From: Acidimicrobiales bacterium | GTDB lineage: Bacteria; Actinomycetota; Actinomycetes; Mycobacteriales; QHCE01 | Assembly (NCBI GenBank): GCA_003243955.1 | Contig: QHCE01000002.1 | Location: 1 to 59,687, forward strand | Direction: 5' to 3' | Length of the DNA stretch: 59,687 bases | In this document: positions 17,892 to 31,565 of the stretch, in pieces | Layout of the letters: the number at the start of each line of letters is the position of its first letter | Position numbering within the stretch: position 1 is the first letter of the stretch | Notes under the pieces: generated by a model | Told to the model about the DNA's origin: nothing | The model's database searches: none | The model's input: only the letters and a program-made list of their open reading frames with translations | Position numbers and translations under genes: made by a program

Positions 17892-18904
17892 ATTACTCCA
17901 AATAATTCCCCCATAAAGCACGTTCCAAGTGATCTGTTTCAACGTGCGCCGTTTGATTCCTTCTGGCTCACTGCGAGTTACTCAGTTCCCTCGCAGCAGT
18001 ACCTGCAAACCGAGGTCGAGAACGTACTGAGTGCGCTAGGCACGTTGGCGGAGCATTTCGAATCGGGCGCGGTGTTGACACTGGATGCGGAGTGGATCCA
18101 AGAGCAGAACCGACGGGTACTTGCCGGTCTCAACTTTGACGAACACGTCACGCCTGGGGAATACACCACGACGCCGCTTGTGGTGGGAACTTACCGCGGC
18201 GCGCCGCCCGAAGACATCCCACTACTGGTAAACAAATTGCTCCGTTGGCTGGATGAACTCACCACACCTGAAGAAGGGCAGCCCGAGAACCTGCGGTTCT
18301 TTCAGGCGTTCCTCGCCGCCACTCTGGGCCACCTCTATCTCGCATGGATCCACCCATTCGGCGACGGGAACGGCAGGACGGCACGGTTACTGGAGTGCGC
18401 GATCTTGACTCGATCCGGGCTTGTACCGTGGTGTCGACAAACCTGTTGTCTGATCACTACAACCGCACGCGCGGGGAGTATTACCGTCGGCTCAATGCGG
18501 CATCACAATCCGGCGCTGTATTGGGCTTCCTGCACTATGCCGCGGTTGGATTCATCGACCAACTACACGAGCAGATCGAAGGCGTCCAGGCTCAACAAGT
18601 GCGGGTTTCGTGGATCAACTATGTGCACGAGAGGTTCGCCGGCCAACCCAACGCAGAGCCGGCTACGCGCCAACGCCAGAGGCTCTTCGCACTCGACCCA
18701 GCCGGCAGCCCGCTTGACTCGCTGCGCAGGCTCACCCCTGAACTGGCCGAACGCTACGCAGGCAAGGGAAGTAAAACGATTAGCCGCGACGTAAACAAAC
18801 TGGTCGAACTTGGACTTGCCGAGAAGACCAGCGATCGCGCACTCCGGCCGCGAATGGAGCTGATCGAGGCATTCATCCCCGGCCGGTCAGGCGCGGCGGA
18901 GTGA
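17892..18904 (+). pseudogene. Fic-domain protein, frameshifted and 5'-truncated
   Basis: The frame is open from 17892 but has no ATG/GTG start before 18045. It reads YLQTEVENVLSALG, RVLAGLNFDEHVTPGEY, TYRGAPPEDIP and the intact Fic motif HPFGDGNGRTARLLE. At about 18430, after LTRSGLVP, one base is missing; the next frame continues VVSTNLLSDHYNRTRGEYYR to a C-terminal winged-helix (GKGSKTISRDVNKLVELGLA). The N-terminal inhibitory S/T-x-x-x-E-G helix usual in this class is absent. Both lesions make a functional AMPylase unlikely. Confidence 0.8.
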
Positions 18905-19000: not shown

Positions 19001-20473
19001 ATGAGCGCGACGGCCAACTGGTATCCAAATCCTGAAAATCCAACTCAGTGGCGCTACTGGAATGGATTCGCATGGACCCAGCACCGGGCTCCACGGGTGC
19101 CTCCCTTGGTTCCCGCAGCCATTCCAGCTCCTGCCGTAGCTCCAGTCACCGTGGTGACTCCGGCCGACTCGCAGCATGTGGCCGATAGATCCCACGATCA
19201 GCCGGAAGCATCCACGTCCGTCCCGGTGACGGCGGCGCCTAAAGTTCCGCTCTTCGGTGCCCGTGCCCTCGCCAAGGAATCGGTCGCCGAGATCGCAAAA
19301 CTTCGCGACGACATGAATCGGCTGGGCATGCTCGACATCATCGAACTTGAGCAGGAAAAGAAGAGGCTCACAGCCGCGGTCGAAGAGCAGCGTGTGACCT
19401 TGGATCAAGAAGCTGTCGAGCTCGGTAAACGTCTGGGTGAGCTCCGCAAACAGGTCCTTGTCACCGAAGAGACCGCCGTCCTCCAGGAAGCCGGTATCTA
19501 CGAGTACCGGCACCCCTTGAGCGATTCGATCGCCTATCGAGTAGAGCTTGCGAAGCTACAGGACAAGATCAAAACAATGGCACGCAAGAATGGCGGTGCC
19601 ATTCAGACGGCACAGGACTGGACCGTCAACGGATCTCAGGTCCAGGGCCGCAAAATGCTCAACGACTTTTCCAAGCTCATGCTGCGGGCATACAACGCCG
19701 AAGCGGACAACCTGGTGCGTGGACTGAAACCTTACAAACTCCAATCCGCCGAAGAACGGCTCGACAAGGTCGCCACCACCATTGCCAAGTTGGGCACCAC
19801 CATGAGCATTGGTATCTCGCTTCCCTATCACCAATTACGCCTATGGGAACTCGCTCTGACCGCGGACTTCCAGGAAAAACTGGCAGAGGAAAAGGATCGG
19901 GAACGCGAGGAGCGGGCGCGGCTGCGCGAGGAACGCAAAGTTCAGCAAGAGATCGAGCGAGAATGCGAGCGGCTAGAAAAGGAGCGGCAGCACTACGTCA
20001 ACGCGCTGCGCGGCTTGACCGACGAACAGGCGAGGAAGCGTCTGGAGGATGGACTCAGAAAGGTCGAGAAATCTATCGATGACGTGGACTATCGGGCGGC
20101 GAACATCCGCGCCGGCTACGTCTACGTGATCTCCAATGTCGGCGCATTCGGCGATCGCATGATCAAGGTCGGCATGACCCGCCGTCTCGAACCCATGGAA
20201 CGTGTCCGGGAACTTGGCGACGCATCCGTGCCGTTTAAGTTTGACGTGCACGCTTTGTTTTTCTCCGCCGACGCGGTCGGCATCGAAACCGAGATGCACA
20301 AGCGTCTCGCCGATCGCAGAGTGAACCGCGTCAATCTCCGACGGGAGTTCTTCCATGCCACCCCAGGTGAGGCCCGCAGCCACCTCAGTCAGCTGGCCGG
20401 GGAGCTCCTGACCTTCGAGGAGCAGCCCGAGGCCATCGAGTACCACCAGAGCATGAACGCTTCTCTAGCCTGA
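19001..20473 (+). CDS. DUF2510-DUF4041-T5orf172 (GIY-YIG-like) protein
   Basis: A 490-residue protein in three parts. Residues 1-27 form a DUF2510-like motif (WYPNPENPTQWRYWNGFAWT). Residues about 95-330 are a long coiled coil with DUF4041 features (EIAKLRDDMNRLGMLDIIEL, TYNAEADNLV-like segment, LRLWELALTADFQEKLAEEK). Residues about 360-450 are a T5orf172/GIY-YIG-like nuclease domain (AGYVYVISN, MIKVGMTRR, AVGIETEMHKRLADRRVNR). Such proteins are found in phages and defence islands; a nuclease role is inferred. It ends 9 bp before the first copy of a duplicated hsdR end. Confidence 0.75.
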   Translation: MSATANWYPNPENPTQWRYWNGFAWTQHRAPRVPPLVPAAIPAPAVAPVTVVTPADSQHVADRSHDQPEASTSVPVTAAPKVPLFGARALAKESVAEIAKLRDDMNRLGMLDIIELEQEKKRLTAAVEEQRVTLDQEAVELGKRLGELRKQVLVTEETAVLQEAGIYEYRHPLSDSIAYRVELAKLQDKIKTMARKNGGAIQTAQDWTVNGSQVQGRKMLNDFSKLMLRAYNAEADNLVRGLKPYKLQSAEERLDKVATTIAKLGTTMSIGISLPYHQLRLWELALTADFQEKLAEEKDREREERARLREERKVQQEIERECERLEKERQHYVNALRGLTDEQARKRLEDGLRKVEKSIDDVDYRAANIRAGYVYVISNVGAFGDRMIKVGMTRRLEPMERVRELGDASVPFKFDVHALFFSADAVGIETEMHKRLADRRVNRVNLRREFFHATPGEARSHLSQLAGELLTFEEQPEAIEYHQSMNASLA

Positions 20474-20481
20474 GCGGAGTC

Positions 20482-20548
20482 CATCGGCGTGCGGTTCAAG
20501 CGACGCTGCGCCGTAGTGCCTCGTAGGCGTAGCGGCTGAGGTTAGCTC
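20482..20548. repeat. duplicated hsdR 3' end, copy A (7-nt deletion)
   Basis: This 67-bp stretch repeats 22192-22265, which encodes the last 20 codons and stop of hsdR plus 14 bp beyond. Copy A lacks CGGGCGG within a GC-rich run, so it no longer reads as HsdR. The two copies bracket the AbiE gene pair as direct repeats. Confidence 0.9.
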
Positions 20549-20570
20549 CACCCGAGAAAACTTGGGCTCC

Positions 20571-21188
20571 ATGGAAGTTACATGTAGTGTAGTTTTCGTG
20601 CAGCCTCGAGGGTTAGATCTTCTTTACGATGTCGCCGAGCCACAGGGGGGGTACTTCACTACACGCTTGGCGGCCACAACCGGAGTCTCCACCCGACTTC
20701 TCACCCATTACGCCGCTGCTGGAGACATCAAGCGAGTTGCGCACGGAGTGTATCGGCTAGAGCGGTTTCCAGCGCATCGTTTCGGTGACATGATCGCCGC
20801 GACCCTGTGGGCCGGTCCGGGTAGCGCGATCAGTCACGACAGCGCATTGACGGTATATGAACTCGCCGGGGCGATGCCGGCGGTCATTCACATCACCGTG
20901 CCTCATCGGTTCCGAGGCAGACGCCCTGGAACCGTCATCCACCAGCAAGCCCTCACACCACGCGAGGTCACCGTATGGGACGACGTACCGGTTACTGTCA
21001 TCGAGCGGACCATCGTCGACGTTGCCACCGGCATTGACCCCTCACTTGCCGCCGAAGCCGTGCAGCAGGCTCAGCAGCAAGGCCTGACCACCCGTGAGCG
21101 GCTCATCGCCTACGCTGACGCGCACCCGGACCACGCCGCGTTGCGCCGCATGCTCGAGCTTGACAAGGCTCGACTCAGGGCGGTGTAA
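20571..21188 (+). CDS. AbiEi-family antitoxin / transcriptional regulator
   Basis: About 205 residues. An N-terminal winged helix (GGYFTTRLAATTGVSTRLLTHYAAA, KRVAHGVYRL) is followed by the AbiEi_4-type domain with AISHDSALTVYELAGAMP, HITVPHRF and VTVIERTIVDVA. AbiEi proteins repress their own operon and neutralise the AbiEii nucleotidyltransferase. The stop is 2 bp before the next gene. ATG 20571 or GTG 20599 (MQPRGLDLLYDVAEPQGG) are both possible starts; neither has a clear ribosome site. Confidence 0.88.
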   Translation: MEVTCSVVFVQPRGLDLLYDVAEPQGGYFTTRLAATTGVSTRLLTHYAAAGDIKRVAHGVYRLERFPAHRFGDMIAATLWAGPGSAISHDSALTVYELAGAMPAVIHITVPHRFRGRRPGTVIHQQALTPREVTVWDDVPVTVIERTIVDVATGIDPSLAAEAVQQAQQQGLTTRERLIAYADAHPDHAALRRMLELDKARLRAV

Positions 21189-21190
21189 AT

Positions 21191-22108
21191 ATGACAAGTC
21201 GATATCTGAAGCCGCAGGCACTGCGCAAAGCGCTAGAAGATCGTCTCAAGACCTACAGCCGCGAATCTGGCCTGCCCTTGGATCGGCTCCGCAAAGAGGC
21301 CGCCTTCCAACGTCTGCTCGCCCGAATCGCCGCAGTCGCCCCAACTGGCAGCTGGGCTCTCAAAGGCGGCCAAGCTATGATCGCCCGCAGCGGCAACCAT
21401 GCCCGAGCTACAGCTGATGCCGACGCAACCTGGCGAGCCGCAACCGTCCAGCTCCAGGCAACCCTGGCTGCCGCCGCAGCGCTCAACCTCGATGACCATT
21501 TTCAGTTCCTCATCGCCCCACCAACCAGTATGCGCGGCGAAGGGCCTGACGGCGCCGTCCGATTCGGCGTCCAAGCCCGCCTCGCCGGTCGGCTGTTCGA
21601 ACCGCTGCGCCTTGACATCAACCTGGCCCCGGACGACCCCAGACCCATCGAGCAGTTGTCGTTGCGCAACTTCTTCGACTTTCTTGAACTGCCCACTGTC
21701 GTCGTCCCGGCAATCAGCCCTGGGCAGCAACTCGCTGAAAAACTCCACGCCTACACCCGCGACTACGGCCTACACGAAAACACGAGAGCTAAAGATCTCT
21801 ACGACATGCTTCTCATAGCCGCCGATTTGACGATTCCCACTCTCGGTGACCTCGTCGACGCCTGTGCAACGACTTTTGCACTCCGCGAGACCCCATGGCC
21901 TCCGCAACGTCTCAACCCACCACCGCTTACCTGGATCGGACCGTGGGCCGGCTTCGTCCGTGACTACGGCACCAGATTCTTGACCCTCGACAGTGCATAT
22001 CAAGCACTCACCGCGTTCTGGCGGCCAGCACTCAGCTTCACAGAACCCGCCGACAGCAGCTGGGATAGCACTACTTGGACCTGGTCCTCTTCCGGCCATG
22101 TCGGCTGA
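21191..22108 (+). CDS. AbiEii-family nucleotidyltransferase toxin
   Basis: A 305-residue nucleotidyltransferase. SWALKGGQAMIARSG carries the GG/GS-type motif, followed by ATADADATW with the D-x-D metal-binding pair. The conserved lysine helix LAEKLHAYTR and RAKDLYDMLLIA complete the family signature. Related toxins add nucleotides to tRNA 3' ends and stop growth during phage infection. With AbiEi it forms a type IV toxin-antitoxin pair. The cassette (20549-22191) lies between the two hsdR end copies and is on the strand opposite hsdR. Confidence 0.88.
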   Translation: MTSRYLKPQALRKALEDRLKTYSRESGLPLDRLRKEAAFQRLLARIAAVAPTGSWALKGGQAMIARSGNHARATADADATWRAATVQLQATLAAAAALNLDDHFQFLIAPPTSMRGEGPDGAVRFGVQARLAGRLFEPLRLDINLAPDDPRPIEQLSLRNFFDFLELPTVVVPAISPGQQLAEKLHAYTRDYGLHENTRAKDLYDMLLIAADLTIPTLGDLVDACATTFALRETPWPPQRLNPPPLTWIGPWAGFVRDYGTRFLTLDSAYQALTAFWRPALSFTEPADSSWDSTTWTWSSSGHVG

Positions 22109-22191
22109 ACTTCCACCGGGCGAGGTTAAGAGAACTGCAGATGCCGTACTGCAAGCGCAAGGGAACCACCACCTGGCACTGGCGCCGGAGT

Positions 22192-22265
22192 CATCGGCGT
22201 GCGGTTCAAGCGACGCTGCGCCGTAGTGCCTCGTAGGCGTAGCGGCGGGCGGCTGAGGTTAGCTC
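22192..22265. repeat. hsdR 3' end, copy B (74 bp), partner of 20482-20548
   Basis: This is the native hsdR end: on the minus strand it encodes ELTSAARRYAYEALRRSVA and stop, plus 14 bp downstream. Sequence is identical to copy A except for the 7-bp block CGGGCGG. The bases outside the repeat differ, apart from a nearby shared CGGAGT. Confidence 0.9.
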
Positions 22266-25200
22266 AGATTTGAAGACGTCGTCGTCGCTGAACCGCTGCA
22301 GGACTACGGTGTTGTCCTCAATTCGTGCGATCAGTTTGTCCTCGAACACGCCGTCGAAGACGTGCCCGAAGTCCTCCTCGTTGTTGGCAAACGCCGCCGC
22401 TTTCACCTTTGGAGCAGTCATTGCGTCGCGTGCGGAATTTACGACCAGGTCGCCGTCGCCGAGGTTGACGCCGAACTTCTCGTTGAGCCCTTCGATCAGC
22501 TCCGACAGGGGCACCTGGCCTGGCTCGGTGCGGCTACCAGCGCCGTCACCGGTGAATCCGGGCAGCAGCTGCTCGCCCTGCGGCGTGAGACGCACGTCGT
22601 GCTCGCCGGTGCGGGTGATGCGCAGGTGGGTGAGGTCGACCTGCCCGAGGTCGACGCCGGGGTCTTCACGCCGCGGCAGTCGATTGAGTAGGTGGCGCCC
22701 GTAGAGGTAGAGCCGTTCCAGCTCGGGATCGACGTAGGGAACGACCTGAGACAAGAAGCCATACATGCGGGTGTAGTCCCGCAGCGCGGAGCGGAACTCC
22801 TCTGCCGCGTCCGAATCGTCGTCCATCAGCGCCGCGAAGCGGTCCCGAGCCGGATCGGTGAAGCGGTAAAGATCAGCGTGGGCGCGCTGCCACTGCGCAT
22901 CAGTGATCGCGCTCTGCTCAGCATGCAGGTAGGCGGCTACGAAAGCGTCCATCTCGGAATCGATGAGCAGCGCCGAGTCCATCACCGCCCGCTGTGCGGC
23001 GTAGAGCAGGTTGGGGTCGGTCGGAGCAGCGATCGCACTCTCGTAGAACGGTGCGAACGCGTCCTTGATCTCCTCGGCCTCATTGGCGAAGTCGATCACG
23101 AACAGGTCTTCCTGGCTTTTGCGCGGATGGGTCCGGTTGAGTCGTGAGAGAGTCTGCACGGCGGCAACACCCTCCAGCTTCTTGTCCACGTACATCGTGG
23201 TGAGCAGCGGCTGATCGAACCCGGTCTGATATTTGTCAGCTACCACGAGAATTCGATACTCAGGCTGTGGGTTCGCCGCGGCGGATGGATCGTCGGCTTT
23301 GGTGTAACCGAACTTCTGGGGTAGCGCGGATTCGCTGAAGCCGTTGATGCCCGGCTCGGTGACCTTGTCTTCGGGGTTCCTATCGACTTCCAGCTCGCCG
23401 GAGAACGCCACCAGCACGCCGCAGTCGTGGTAGCCGCGGACCTGCGCGTATGCCTTGATCTTGCGGTACAGCTTCACGGCGTGCTCGCGAGAGCGGGTAA
23501 CGACCAGCGCCTTCGCGCGACCGTCGAGTTTGGCCGCAACTTTGTCATGGAAGTGTTCAACGATGATCTCGGCCCGTTGTTCAAGGCTAGCTGGGCTGAG
23601 CACCGCGAACCGCGCGAGCTGCGCGCTGGCCTTGCGTTCGTCGACTTCCCGGTCATCGGGGTTCCCATTGGCAAGCTTCCAGTACGTCTTGTAGGTGACA
23701 TAGTTGCGCAGCACGTCGAGGATGAAGCCCTCATCGATGGCTTGGCGCATCGAGTAGATGTGGAATGCCTGAAGGTTTCCGGTAACCGGATGGGGTGTAC
23801 CGAACAGCTCCAGCGTTTTCGCTTTCGGTGTTGCGGTGAACGCGAAGTACGACAGCGTGTCGTGCTTGCCTCTGGCGAGCGCGGAGGCGGTGAGCAGGTC
23901 GTCGTTGTCAGTAATGTCGTCGGTGCCGAGCTTGAGCAGTACTTTTTTCAGCGCCGCCGACGATTCGCCGGATTGCGAGGAGTGCGCCTCGTCCACGATG
24001 AGCGCGAACTTTTTACCGCGCAGGTCGGTTACTTTGTCCAGGACGTGCGGAAAGGTCTGTAGCGTGACGATGAGAATCTTGGTGGTTTCTCCGGACAGCG
24101 CCTCGGCGACTTGATCGGACTTCGATCCCTCCGACTTCTCGCTGATCTTGCGCACAACACCGGAGCGATGCTCGAACTGGTAGATGGTGTCTTGTAGCTG
24201 CCGGTCCAGCACGGACCGGTCGGTGATCACGATGACCTTGTTGAATACCGGCTCGTTCTCCGCGCTATGCAGGTTGGACAACCGGTGCGCGAGCCACGCA
24301 ATGGTGTTGGACTTGCCGGAGCCCGCCGAGTGCTGGATGAGGTAGTTGTGTCCGGAGCCATGGTGTGCCGCGTGCTCGGTGAGCGCGCAGACAGCGTGCC
24401 ACTGGTGGAAACGCGGGAAGATCGTCGGCCGTTCGTGCACGTTTTTCCTGCCGCCCGCTCTGCCACTGGAGCTGGCATCGGGGACCTTCTCCACGTGCAG
24501 GAACCGCCGGGTCAGGTCGAGCCACGCTTCGGGCTGCCACACTTGCTCCCACAGGTAGGAGGTGCGATAGCCGTCGTCGTGGGCGGCCGGGTTTCCGGCG
24601 CCACCGTCGATGCCGGGGCCGCTGGATCCGGTGTTGAACGGAAGAAAGCGCGTCTTCTCGCCGGCGAGCCGGGTGGTGATGAACACGAGCTCCGGATCGA
24701 CCGCGAAGTGCACCAGTGTTCGGCGCGCGAACAGTAGCTCGCGTGGGTCACGATCACGGCGGTACTGGGCTTTGGCATGCTCGACGGTCTGGTCGGTGAG
24801 CGGGTTTTTCAGTTCGGCGGTGGCCACGGGGATGCCGTTGATGAAGAGCGCGAGGTCGAGGGATTTATCCGGGGCTTTGGTCGAATACCGCAGCTGACGG
24901 GTGACCGATAGTCGATTGTGGCGGTACTGCACCAGCGCGTCGTCGGCAAGTGTGTGCGCGGGGCTAAAGTAGACCAGCCGGATCAACACGCCCCGATCTT
25001 TTACTCCGTGCCGCAGCACATCGAGTACGCCACGGGCGTCGATCTCCCGCGCGAGGTGCTGTTGGAACCTTCGCTGAGTGGCGGCCTGATCACCGCCGTC
25101 GAAGTGCACCAGCTGCTTCCATTGCTCAATTTGGGTGGCACCGATGAACGTGAACAGCTGATCGGTGTCGAGCCCAAGTTTCCGGTCGTATCCGTCGGGC

Positions 25201-25277
25201 AACCCCTGGTGCCAGCCCGAGCCGAGCAACACCCGCTCGATCGCGTCTTCGAACGCGATCTCTTTGTGCACGCTCAC
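22206..25277 (-). CDS. hsdR: type I restriction enzyme R subunit (HsdR)
   Basis: A 1023-residue motor/nuclease subunit. The N-terminal PD-(D/E)xK endonuclease shows LDLALFINGIPVATAELKNP near residues 140-160. The SF2 translocase has Walker A HSAGSGKSN near 315, DEAH in LIVDEAHSSQSGE near 425, and motif III FAFTATPKAKTLELFG. A helical C-terminal part contacts the methylase. With HsdM and HsdS it cuts unmodified DNA after ATP-driven translocation. Length is normal and the frame intact. It is last in the minus-strand hsd operon, after an inserted PIN toxin pair. Confidence 0.95.
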   Translation of the reverse strand: MSVHKEIAFEDAIERVLLGSGWHQGLPDGYDRKLGLDTDQLFTFIGATQIEQWKQLVHFDGGDQAATQRRFQQHLAREIDARGVLDVLRHGVKDRGVLIRLVYFSPAHTLADDALVQYRHNRLSVTRQLRYSTKAPDKSLDLALFINGIPVATAELKNPLTDQTVEHAKAQYRRDRDPRELLFARRTLVHFAVDPELVFITTRLAGEKTRFLPFNTGSSGPGIDGGAGNPAAHDDGYRTSYLWEQVWQPEAWLDLTRRFLHVEKVPDASSSGRAGGRKNVHERPTIFPRFHQWHAVCALTEHAAHHGSGHNYLIQHSAGSGKSNTIAWLAHRLSNLHSAENEPVFNKVIVITDRSVLDRQLQDTIYQFEHRSGVVRKISEKSEGSKSDQVAEALSGETTKILIVTLQTFPHVLDKVTDLRGKKFALIVDEAHSSQSGESSAALKKVLLKLGTDDITDNDDLLTASALARGKHDTLSYFAFTATPKAKTLELFGTPHPVTGNLQAFHIYSMRQAIDEGFILDVLRNYVTYKTYWKLANGNPDDREVDERKASAQLARFAVLSPASLEQRAEIIVEHFHDKVAAKLDGRAKALVVTRSREHAVKLYRKIKAYAQVRGYHDCGVLVAFSGELEVDRNPEDKVTEPGINGFSESALPQKFGYTKADDPSAAANPQPEYRILVVADKYQTGFDQPLLTTMYVDKKLEGVAAVQTLSRLNRTHPRKSQEDLFVIDFANEAEEIKDAFAPFYESAIAAPTDPNLLYAAQRAVMDSALLIDSEMDAFVAAYLHAEQSAITDAQWQRAHADLYRFTDPARDRFAALMDDDSDAAEEFRSALRDYTRMYGFLSQVVPYVDPELERLYLYGRHLLNRLPRREDPGVDLGQVDLTHLRITRTGEHDVRLTPQGEQLLPGFTGDGAGSRTEPGQVPLSELIEGLNEKFGVNLGDGDLVVNSARDAMTAPKVKAAAFANNEEDFGHVFDGVFEDKLIARIEDNTVVLQRFSDDDVFKSELTSAARRYAYEALRRSVA

Positions 25278-25343: not shown

Positions 25344-25847
25344 CTACCCAGTGCGATCAGCACCCCGGTCTCCGACAGTACGCGGCTCCCGACGGTATCG
25401 GGAAACCTGACGGTCGAGTGCTCGGTACACGGCATCACGATCTAGGTCGCGTTGGTCAAGGAGGAAGGAGTCTTGATCGGTCACCTCAATGTCATAGGGC
25501 GCCGTTGAGCTAGACGGAAAGTCGCGGATGTTCTGGGTAACGATCACGTCGGCTCGGCCTCGAACGGCGGCCGCGAGGACGTGTCGGTCCTTTAGATCGT
25601 TAGTCATAGCACTTGTGAGCGATCTGTACCCTGTGACAATGGCGCCAGGGAAATGCTTGGCCATCTGCCCAATGCGGTAATCGACCCCGGTCTCCGTTAC
25701 ACGATGCTCTAGCAGGTTTCGGCGCAGCTCATCGAGGATGTCCTGTGACCACAGCGGCTGGAATAGGCCCTCTTCCGCAACGGTCAGCAGCGTGTCACAA
25801 AGCAGAGGTTTGAACAGCACACATGTATCGAGGAGCGCTCGAAACAT
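25344..25847 (-). CDS. PIN-domain ribonuclease toxin
   Basis: A 167-residue PIN protein: first acidic residue in MFRALLDTCVLFKPLLCD, the LWSQDILDELRRNL helix, then NDLKDRHVLAAAVRGRADVI with the D-x-x-x metal-binding positions, and TQNIRDFP. The C-terminal tail is charged. It starts in an ATGA overlap with the upstream antitoxin gene, so it is translationally coupled. PIN toxins cleave tRNA or rRNA. This pair sits between hsdS and hsdR inside the restriction operon. Confidence 0.85.
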   Translation of the reverse strand: MFRALLDTCVLFKPLLCDTLLTVAEEGLFQPLWSQDILDELRRNLLEHRVTETGVDYRIGQMAKHFPGAIVTGYRSLTSAMTNDLKDRHVLAAAVRGRADVIVTQNIRDFPSSSTAPYDIEVTDQDSFLLDQRDLDRDAVYRALDRQVSRYRREPRTVGDRGADRTG

Positions 25848-26335
25848 CAGCCTGCGGCTTCCGAATGGTCCGGCAGCCGCTTGGTTACCGCGTCTTCGGA
25901 GAGGTCGTAAAGCCCGGCTTCTTCGGATGCTCGCACCATCTCGTCGAGGCCAGCCGCGCGGGCGCGATGAGCTCGTGCTTGGTAGGCGAGCAGATCGCGT
26001 AGTCGGACCCGACGATGCCGGCCGGGTTTGTCGAAGGGAATCTCGCCGGCCTCCAGCAACCGGACCAGGGTGGGGCGAGAGATCCCTAATAGGTCGGCGG
26101 CCTGGCTCGTGGTCAACACGGTGTGCCGGGGGGCGACAGTTATCGCCAACCCCTGCGAGAGCACGGCGGCGACATCCTTCAGAACCTCGTACAGTTCCTC
26201 TGGAAGCTCGATATGTGTGCCGTCGGCAGCCACGAGTGCCGGGCGACCCGGCACCGTCAGTGCCGCCAACAGATTGGCCATCCGCCGCCCCGACTCGGCG
26301 GGCATAACGGTTCGCTCAGTCAGGGTTGCGTCCAT
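25847..26335 (-). CDS. excisionase-type helix-turn-helix antitoxin of the PIN toxin
   Basis: A 162-residue protein. A MerR/excisionase-like DNA-binding domain in the middle reads LTTSQAADLLGISRPTLVRL, then PGRHRRVRLRDLLAYQARAH. The C-terminal LYDLSEDAVTKRLPDHSEA probably wraps the toxin. It overlaps the PIN gene by ATGA, the antitoxin-first order of type II systems. Together the pair likely autoregulates; it may also stabilise the restriction operon around it. Confidence 0.8.
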   Translation of the reverse strand: MDATLTERTVMPAESGRRMANLLAALTVPGRPALVAADGTHIELPEELYEVLKDVAAVLSQGLAITVAPRHTVLTTSQAADLLGISRPTLVRLLEAGEIPFDKPGRHRRVRLRDLLAYQARAHRARAAGLDEMVRASEEAGLYDLSEDAVTKRLPDHSEAAG

Positions 26336-29958: not shown

Positions 29959-30306
29959 ATGACTTCCGCAGTGCCTCCGTCCGCAGTGCCTCCGCAGACC
30001 CTAGGCGTTATCGAAGCGCGTGAGCGCCTTCCTCAGATCTTGGAGGAGTTTCGCCGCGGTTCCCAGGCTCCGGTTTTTATCGGTTCTCACCGCCGCACCG
30101 AAGCTGTGATAATCCCGGTCGACAGCTATCAGCGGCAAGATTTTGCGGGAAGAGCTAAGGCATTAACCTCGGCACTCGGTTCCCTTCGAGCTGAAGGGCT
30201 CACTCCCTCCTCAGCTCTGGCCGCGATCATGACACAGTGGACTCGTGGCGAAATCTCCGATGAGGAGATGGAACAACACGTTGATGCGCTCTATGGAGCG
30301 CGATGA
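29959..30306 (+). CDS. Fic antitoxin with Phd/YefM-like N-terminus and VbhA-like inhibitory helix
   Basis: A 115-residue antitoxin. Residues about 14-55 (VIEARERLPQILEEFRRGSQ, EAVIIPVDSYQ) look like a Phd/YefM DNA-binding fold. The C-terminal part reads LGSLRAEGLTPSS, which contains the S-x-x-x-E-G Fic-inhibition motif of VbhA-type antitoxins, followed by RGEISDEEMEQHV, also VbhA-like. The next gene encodes Fic with a 4-bp overlap. The N-terminus has a 15-bp tandem duplication (SAVPPSAVPP). Autorepression plus active-site occlusion is the inferred mode. Confidence 0.78.
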   Translation: MTSAVPPSAVPPQTLGVIEARERLPQILEEFRRGSQAPVFIGSHRRTEAVIIPVDSYQRQDFAGRAKALTSALGSLRAEGLTPSSALAAIMTQWTRGEISDEEMEQHVDALYGAR

Positions 30307-30881
30307 CCATCGATCCATATACCGATCCCGCAACTGGAGTATTGCATAACAAGCTAGGCCTTACAGATGCAGATAACTTAAGCCAAGCGGAGACCGGCCT
30401 GAGCCTCAAGGCCATAGCACTGCTTAGTCGAAATCCCTTACCCGGCAGCTACGATCTCGAACACCTACAGGCTTTTCATCGCCACATTTTCGGCAAAATC
30501 TATCCGTGGACTGGCGAGATCCGGACCGTGGCCATCGCCAAGCTCGACCTATACTGCCTGCCGCAGTACATAGTGGGATACGCCACCGACCTGTTCGGCA
30601 AACTTGCTAACGCCGACAACTACCTGCGCGAGTTGGGACGCGAAACATTCCTTGATCGGCTCACGTACTACGTCGCTGAGGTATACGCCGTTCATCCGTT
30701 TCGTGAGGGAAATAGTCGCACTTTGCGTGCTTTCTTCGCCCAGCTCGCCCAACATGCCGGCTGGGAACTGAACTGGGGCAGCCTCAATCAGCAGCGGAGC
30801 TTCGCGGCGTTAGCCGCTACGCTGCGCGGTGAAACCAAGCTACTGGCGGAGCTACTCGATGACTGCCTGGAGTCGGCTTGA
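30303..30881 (+). CDS. Fic-domain AMP-transferase toxin
   Basis: A 192-residue Fic protein in the class I arrangement (separate antitoxin). Visible are LEHLQAFHRHIFGKIYPWTG with GEIRTVAI, the flap region, and the active-site motif HPFREGNSRTLRAFF. The motif has Ser where G is more usual (GNGR), a variant seen in this type of Fic; catalytic His, Glu, Asn and Arg are kept. It likely AMPylates a host target unless bound by the upstream antitoxin. ATGA overlap supports coupled translation. Confidence 0.88.
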   Translation: MTIDPYTDPATGVLHNKLGLTDADNLSQAETGLSLKAIALLSRNPLPGSYDLEHLQAFHRHIFGKIYPWTGEIRTVAIAKLDLYCLPQYIVGYATDLFGKLANADNYLRELGRETFLDRLTYYVAEVYAVHPFREGNSRTLRAFFAQLAQHAGWELNWGSLNQQRSFAALAATLRGETKLLAELLDDCLESA

Positions 30882-31007
30882 GCCACGCCGCCCAACATCT
30901 TGGCACTGTCACGCTCTCTGGCTACTTCACCACGCCGCCTCATGTCATCAACTAATGTGGGCGAAACGCATTTTGCATCCGTCCTTTCCCGAGTTCAATA
31001 TTCGATA

Positions 31008-31565
31008 ATGAACAACACTCAACTGATAAGCGTCTCTAAGCGGCTTTCGCTGTATTTGCGGCACGCGCCGGAGCGCATCGGCCTGACCTTGAGTCCCGAT
31101 GGCTGGGTCACGGTGGAGGAGCTGCTTGCGGCGCTGGCCCGACACAACCTGGCCTTGACGCGGGCAGAGCTCGACGAGGTTGTGGACGGCAACGATAAAC
31201 AACGGTTCGCTTTCGACGCGACTGGCAACCGGATCCGCGCTAATCAAGGGCACAGTGTGCCCGTGGATCTCGACCTGCCGATAGCAGTGCCGCCTGCCGT
31301 GCTCTACCACGGCACAGTCGAGAAGTTCCTCGGCGCCATCTGGCGTGAGGGACTACGGCCTATGCGGCGGCGGCATGTTCATCTTTCCGCCACAGCACAG
31401 ACCGCTACTTCGGTGGGCGCCCGTCGTGGCCCACCTGTGGTGCTGCGGGTAGATTCGGCGGCGATGGCCGCGGCAAGACACCAATTCCGGGTTAGCGCCA
31501 ATGGTGTATGGCTGGTCACGCACGTACCGCCGCATTATCTGTCGGCATGGAACCCAAGCATCTAA
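31008..31565 (+). CDS. kptA: RNA 2'-phosphotransferase (Tpt1/KptA family)
   Basis: A 185-residue protein. The family N-terminus SKRLSLYLRHAPERIGLTLS with DGWVTVEELL is followed by FAFDATGNRIRANQGHSVPV, the NAD-binding YHGT and RRHVHLS. The catalytic Arg-His-Arg-Arg set (LRH, RANQGHS, HGT, HLS regions) is present. Tpt1/KptA transfers a 2'-phosphate from RNA to NAD+, making ADP-ribose 1''-2''-cyclic phosphate; the bacterial substrate is uncertain. The track ORF starts earlier, but MNNTQLISVS at 31008 fits the family start. Confidence 0.9.
   Translation: MNNTQLISVSKRLSLYLRHAPERIGLTLSPDGWVTVEELLAALARHNLALTRAELDEVVDGNDKQRFAFDATGNRIRANQGHSVPVDLDLPIAVPPAVLYHGTVEKFLGAIWREGLRPMRRRHVHLSATAQTATSVGARRGPPVVLRVDSAAMAAARHQFRVSANGVWLVTHVPPHYLSAWNPSI

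Follow-up and report, generated by a model that had tools for sequence, protein, structure and literature searches.

Direct repeats of neighbouring gene ends around AbiE toxin–antitoxin operons, at an hsdR gene and across a phylum

How does a two-gene toxin–antitoxin operon come to lie between two copies of the end of a neighbouring gene? The question is raised by the window, the whole stretch of 59,687 nucleotides analyzed here, in which an abiEi-abiEii pair is bracketed by directly repeated 3′ ends of hsdR, the gene for a type I restriction subunit (22206 to 25277, minus strand). A sequence-only reading had proposed that a cassette was inserted at the end of hsdR and rebuilt that end, as integrases do at tRNA genes, with homologous recombination between related defence islands as the alternative.

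The repeat and the operon behind hsdR

The left copy of the repeat (20475 to 20548, plus strand) spans 74 nt and duplicates the hsdR 3′ end plus downstream bases. The right copy (22186 to 22265, plus strand) spans 80 nt, comprising the native hsdR 3′ end (60 nt) and 20 nt downstream. They share a perfect core of 55 nt (20482 to 20536 and 22192 to 22246), and their alignment of 81 columns contains no substitutions, only a 1-nt indel (an extra C in the left copy) and a 7-nt gap, where the left copy lacks GGCGGGC beside a GGC repeat, described here as a slip. Compared inside a 19-kb stretch, the pair has an E-value of 4e-25, and in the whole assembly (2.42 Mb, 91 contigs) these two copies are the only good matches to the repeat. 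The 67/74-bp repeat noticed earlier is thus real, including the 7-nt deletion in its left copy, but the left edge had been drawn some 6 to 7 nt short. As CGGAGT also matches beyond the 1-nt indel, the repeat extends 20 nt past the hsdR stop codon, rather than the 14 bp originally given.

Judged by its sequence, the right copy is the genuine hsdR end, as had been claimed: it carries the stop codon (22206 to 22208, minus strand), and related HsdR proteins have tails homologous to the one it encodes, ARRYAYEALRRSVA. Identity between the copies covers codon third positions as well as the 20 noncoding nucleotides behind the stop codon, which differ from those of the relatives examined.

The segment between the copies (20549 to 22185, plus strand) is about 1.64 kb long and contains abiEi and abiEii, and nothing else of note. 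The antitoxin gene abiEi (20562 to 21188, plus strand) starts either with TTG at 20562 or with ATG at 20571, and its product matches Pfam AbiEi_4 (E 2e-8) and PADLOC AbiEi (E 1e-61). The toxin gene abiEii (21191 to 22108, plus strand) encodes a nucleotidyltransferase that matches Pfam AbiEii (E 3e-21) and PADLOC AbiEii (E 3e-71). The gap between the left copy and abiEi is 13 or 22 nt, depending on the start codon, and that between abiEii and the right copy is 77 nt. With adjacent genes for an AbiEi antitoxin and an AbiEii nucleotidyltransferase, the pair is predicted to be an AbiE type IV toxin–antitoxin system, and it has the same gene order and domains as known members, a helix-turn-helix antitoxin followed by a nucleotidyltransferase toxin. 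The proteins are ordinary apart from their distance, as the best homologue among 397 genomes of the order has 40% identity. The plasmids and phages searched yielded only distant AbiEii relatives, the viral contigs searched yielded none, and enterobacterial AbiEii was absent among the plasmid matches listed.

The earlier observation that the cassette holds no recombinase was borne out, as only the two abiE genes lie between the copies and the window contains no tyrosine-recombinase motif. An integron gene cassette was also rejected, given this lack of a motif and the repeat ends GTTAGCT and GTTCAAG, which by eye do not fit the attC pattern GTTRRRY/RYYYAAC. After abiEii and before the right copy, a short reading frame opens with MPYCKRKGTTTWHWRR (22142 to 22190, plus strand); it may be a remnant of a small gene that was truncated on insertion.

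The surrounding region is a defence island that includes type I restriction-modification (RM), PD-Lambda-1, and Fic genes. Beyond the left copy lies a DUF4041/T5orf172 gene of the PD-Lambda-1 defence family (19001 to 20473, plus strand), and near it a SoFic-like Fic gene (18045 to 18904, plus strand), which appears broken: its Fic domain stops in one frame, while an apparent carboxyl-terminal part is found in another. A second, VbhT-like Fic gene (30303 to 31565, plus strand) adjoins a gene for a KptA/Tpt1 RNA 2′-phosphotransferase at the edge of the island. Inside the type I RM operon, hsdS and hsdR are separated (25344 to 26335, minus strand) by a PIN-domain gene and a gene for a helix-turn-helix protein of an excisionase-like family, which probably form a toxin–antitoxin pair. 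Relatives of this pair precede hsdR at another locus, L051 (78% identity for the helix-turn-helix protein; 91% for the PIN protein, over only 34 residues).

None of the 12 closest hsdR relatives (68% to 78% identity; from Amycolatopsis, Lentzea, Saccharothrix, Actinopolymorpha, and others) has AbiE behind hsdR; in most of them, that position is taken by the start of what looks like a serine/threonine kinase gene. No comparable tail duplication was found at 106 related hsdR loci, which gave many short, chance-level matches; one of these loci, L105, has a 40-nt repeat 3′ of the hsdR stop codon. The genus of the window is represented by one genome and its sister genome lacks hsdR, and no empty site of the window was found. 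The genome contains no second hsdR of the same family. Among the hsdR loci compared, neither of the two findings named beforehand as counting against an insertion was seen: no locus had two tails without AbiE, and nothing marked the left copy as having ended a second hsdR gene. The lack of comparable tail duplications at related hsdR loci, together with the same anatomy and empty sites found elsewhere (see below), gives good support to the core of the sequence-only reading, namely insertion of AbiE at the hsdR end with the gene left intact.

Repeats around AbiE loci in the phylum

The closest homologue of the AbiE pair, in genome G045, lies between direct repeats of the 3′ end of a dienelactone hydrolase (DLH) gene, and a second AbiE pair in the genome of the window (contig C46) lies between direct repeats of the 3′ end of an Asp23-like gene (a weak match, E 8e-4). 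In a survey, up to 18 kb was fetched around each AbiEii locus of the phylum, and a locus was called enclosed when a direct repeat with a spacing of up to 3.2 kb and an E-value of at most 1e-3 surrounded it. Many of the surveyed genomes are drafts, and gene names were taken from profile matches. Artefacts that stemmed from short or overlapping loci (L144, L150, L158, and L163) were set aside.

Direct repeats are enriched around AbiE: they enclose 22 of 115 AbiEii loci, against 10 of 327 control ORFs in the same stretches. The first set, which takes in the window and the loci that raised the idea, had 14 of 75 AbiEii loci enclosed and 8 of 255 controls; the second set, which excludes them, had 8 of 40 and 2 of 72, respectively (combined p = 1.6e-7). 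When the AbiEii interval was placed at random in the same stretches, 2.8 enclosed loci were expected against the 22 observed, a number reached in none of 200,000 simulations.

By our reading, about half of the repeats, some 11 of 22, correspond to the 3′ end of a protein or tRNA gene. The protein genes are hsdR in the window and genes for an Asp23-like protein (L240), DLH (L242), an FAD oxidoreductase (L308), and a TPR protein (L309). At L240, host DNA provides the last codons of abiEii, as the right copy overlaps the end of that gene. At six other loci (L181, L239, L190, L207, L336, and L339), the repeats are 3′ parts of tRNA genes or sequence directly behind them. The repeats of L339 and L336 begin in the anticodon region of tRNA-Met and tRNA-Asp, respectively, while L181 and L239 have just 3′ halves resembling tRNA-Met, and ARAGORN found no complete tRNA there. 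Among tRNA genes within 1.5 kb of AbiE cassettes of the first set, 13 of 17 have their 3′ end facing the cassette. Across L180 to L259, AbiE cassettes often lie directly behind tRNA 3′ ends, mostly without a detectable second tRNA copy.

One further repeat is a 5′-end duplication, again beside an RM system: at L195, AbiE precedes a type I hsdM gene, whose first 127 nt recur on the other side of the cassette. The other ten repeats are dispersed, otherwise explained, or without clear identity. The 220-bp repeat around AbiE at L250 (genome G254) belongs to a dispersed repeat family with a period of about 20 nt, and the locus is a weak case because parts of the repeat recur many times in that genome. 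L330 was rejected as a gene-end case, as its repeat by eye reads like integrase carboxyl termini.

Filled and empty DLH gene ends were compared within the genus of G045. Three species (G045, G780, and G036) carry AbiE between two DLH tails, and four (G242, G026, G183, and G781) have a single DLH tail and no AbiE. The AbiE pair of G036 has about 30% identity to that of G045 and the opposite orientation. In a tree of the flanks, the closest relatives of G045 and G780 are the empty G242 and G026, so that the insertions were either independent or followed by repeated loss of the cassette. In the three filled genomes, identity between the two tails is 98.4%, 98.4%, and 96.9%, and both tails carry noncoding sequence specific to the species; tails of different species are mostly 78% to 94% identical. 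This pattern fits duplication in each lineage, which gene conversion between the copies could mimic. The repeats start within 11 nt of each other and differ in length (64, about 145 to 168, and 192 bp), where the range given for the left copy in G045 reflects a poly-G/N assembly defect inside it. The cassettes of G045 and G780 are orthologous but unrelated at their outer ends.

Routes of insertion

We favour, at about an even chance, an insertion of the bare operon with a long target duplication, without a recombinase borne by the element. A bare abiEi-abiEii operon of about 1.64 kb would have been inserted at the hsdR 3′ end, and about 80 bp of target (the last 60 nt of hsdR and 20 nt downstream) would have been duplicated on insertion, so that hsdR remained intact. 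For example, a DNA fragment could have been captured where a break had left long staggered ends, or templates could have been switched in the course of repair. The addictive toxin–antitoxin pair might then select for cells that captured or kept it, and gene ends may be favoured because duplication of the tail keeps the gene working. The strong enrichment of such repeats around AbiE, the filled and empty DLH gene ends, the host-specific sequence of the repeats, their variable length at one site, the unconserved cassette ends, the host-derived last codons of abiEii at L240, and the absence of a tyrosine-recombinase motif from the loci scanned point in this direction. On the other side, the use of one DLH end by at least two unrelated cassettes, with repeat starts at most 11 nt apart, gives the impression of site specificity. 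In addition, 3′ halves of tRNAs, from the anticodon region onward, make up several of the repeats, and gene conversion could imitate recent duplication.

It is possible, if somewhat doubtful, that AbiE is instead a non-autonomous circle with a gene tail as its att site, inserted at gene 3′ ends by a tyrosine recombinase acting in trans, which would rebuild the end. The preference for gene 3′ ends would follow, as would the repeated use of one DLH end, which across three species has received two AbiE families, in either orientation. The repeats formed by tRNA 3′ halves also speak for this explanation, since a start in the anticodon region is the usual mark of tyrosine integrases, as does the orientation of nearby tRNA genes; an integrase may well have produced the tRNA cases, even if it had no part in those at protein genes. 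However, a tyrosine-recombinase motif was also absent within 9 kb of the 13 repeat-flanked AbiE loci tested, in a scan with motif expressions rather than profile models that divergent or serine recombinases could escape. Furthermore, the varying repeat length at the DLH site, the orthologous cassettes without common ends, and the inclusion of fast-evolving, host-specific noncoding sequence in the repeats do not suit a recombinase, and hsdR, as an accessory gene, is unlikely as a fixed target. The comparison with integrases at tRNA genes drawn by the sequence-only reading is therefore not established. That the operon is what remains of a larger integrative element at a gene end, which lost all but its att repeats and AbiE, is improbable. 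Cis-mobilizable elements (CIMEs), att-flanked remnants without integration genes, are a recognized class (PMC5704250), and toxin–antitoxin genes resist deletion, but the repeats sit very tightly around the operon, even overlapping abiEii at L240, and two unrelated AbiE cassettes at one DLH end would need to have decayed equally. Least probable is that the left copy once ended a second hsdR gene, whose body was replaced by AbiE through recombination between related defence islands. The island setting would suit such an exchange, but identity stops sharply inside hsdR, with no more hsdR sequence past the left copy, and the perfect identity over 55 nt extends to third positions and noncoding bases. 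The genome has no second hsdR of that family, and the targets elsewhere are unrelated genes and tRNAs. Recombination between islands also lacks support in that no donor island with such an arrangement of tails turned up.

Insertion of a bare operon with a long target duplication has a counterpart in RM systems, for which this type of insertion was reportedly described by Nobusato et al. in 2000 and Furuta et al. in 2010. Published accounts describe long, variable target duplications of the order of 100 bp for these systems (PMC3874152, PMC3031569, PMC1643837). In both cases, an addictive complex is inserted without a transposase and is flanked by long, variable target duplications. The window has a target repeat of that order (74/80 nt) and no element-borne transposase or integrase, and a single-copy empty site is found at the analogous DLH site. 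Here, however, the genomes are of Actinomycetota type, gene 3′ ends predominate, some of the repeats are halves of tRNAs, and a single gene end has been used repeatedly, in several species. Because the passenger is an AbiE type IV toxin–antitoxin pair and not an RM system, the case is a variant of the RM case rather than identical to it. As with CIMEs, a gene 3′ end is directly repeated on either side and no recombinase lies inside; here, only a bare operon lies between the att-like repeats, conserved element ends are lacking (G045 versus G780), and no parent element was seen. In Mycoplasma mycoides, direct repeats flank an AAA-ATPase/protease toxin–antitoxin pair, which the authors read as a recombination scar (PMC8562856); that pair belongs to another toxin–antitoxin family and concerns a single locus, with no link to gene 3′ ends stated in the available part of that report. 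We found no report of flanking gene-end repeats around AbiE in the open-licence literature.

A wider proposal, which we regard as tentative and rather unlikely, is that AbiE operons are minimal mobile units, and that an undescribed route inserts bare toxin–antitoxin operons with a preference for the 3′ ends of protein-coding and tRNA genes, each insertion duplicating the gene end and the same gene ends being used again in related species.

These repeats bear on how chromosomal toxin–antitoxin pairs travel without a transposase or integrase, as the end of an adjacent gene, present in two direct copies, serves as a legible scar of the event. About one-fifth of the surveyed AbiE loci carry this scar, and empty sites in sister species have the sequence only once, so that the question can be addressed by comparative genomics and capture experiments. 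Toxin–antitoxin pairs are thereby linked to the long-target-duplication route described for RM systems, and the recurrence of the same duplication mark suggests that addictive pairs move as bare cassettes that spare the neighbouring gene.
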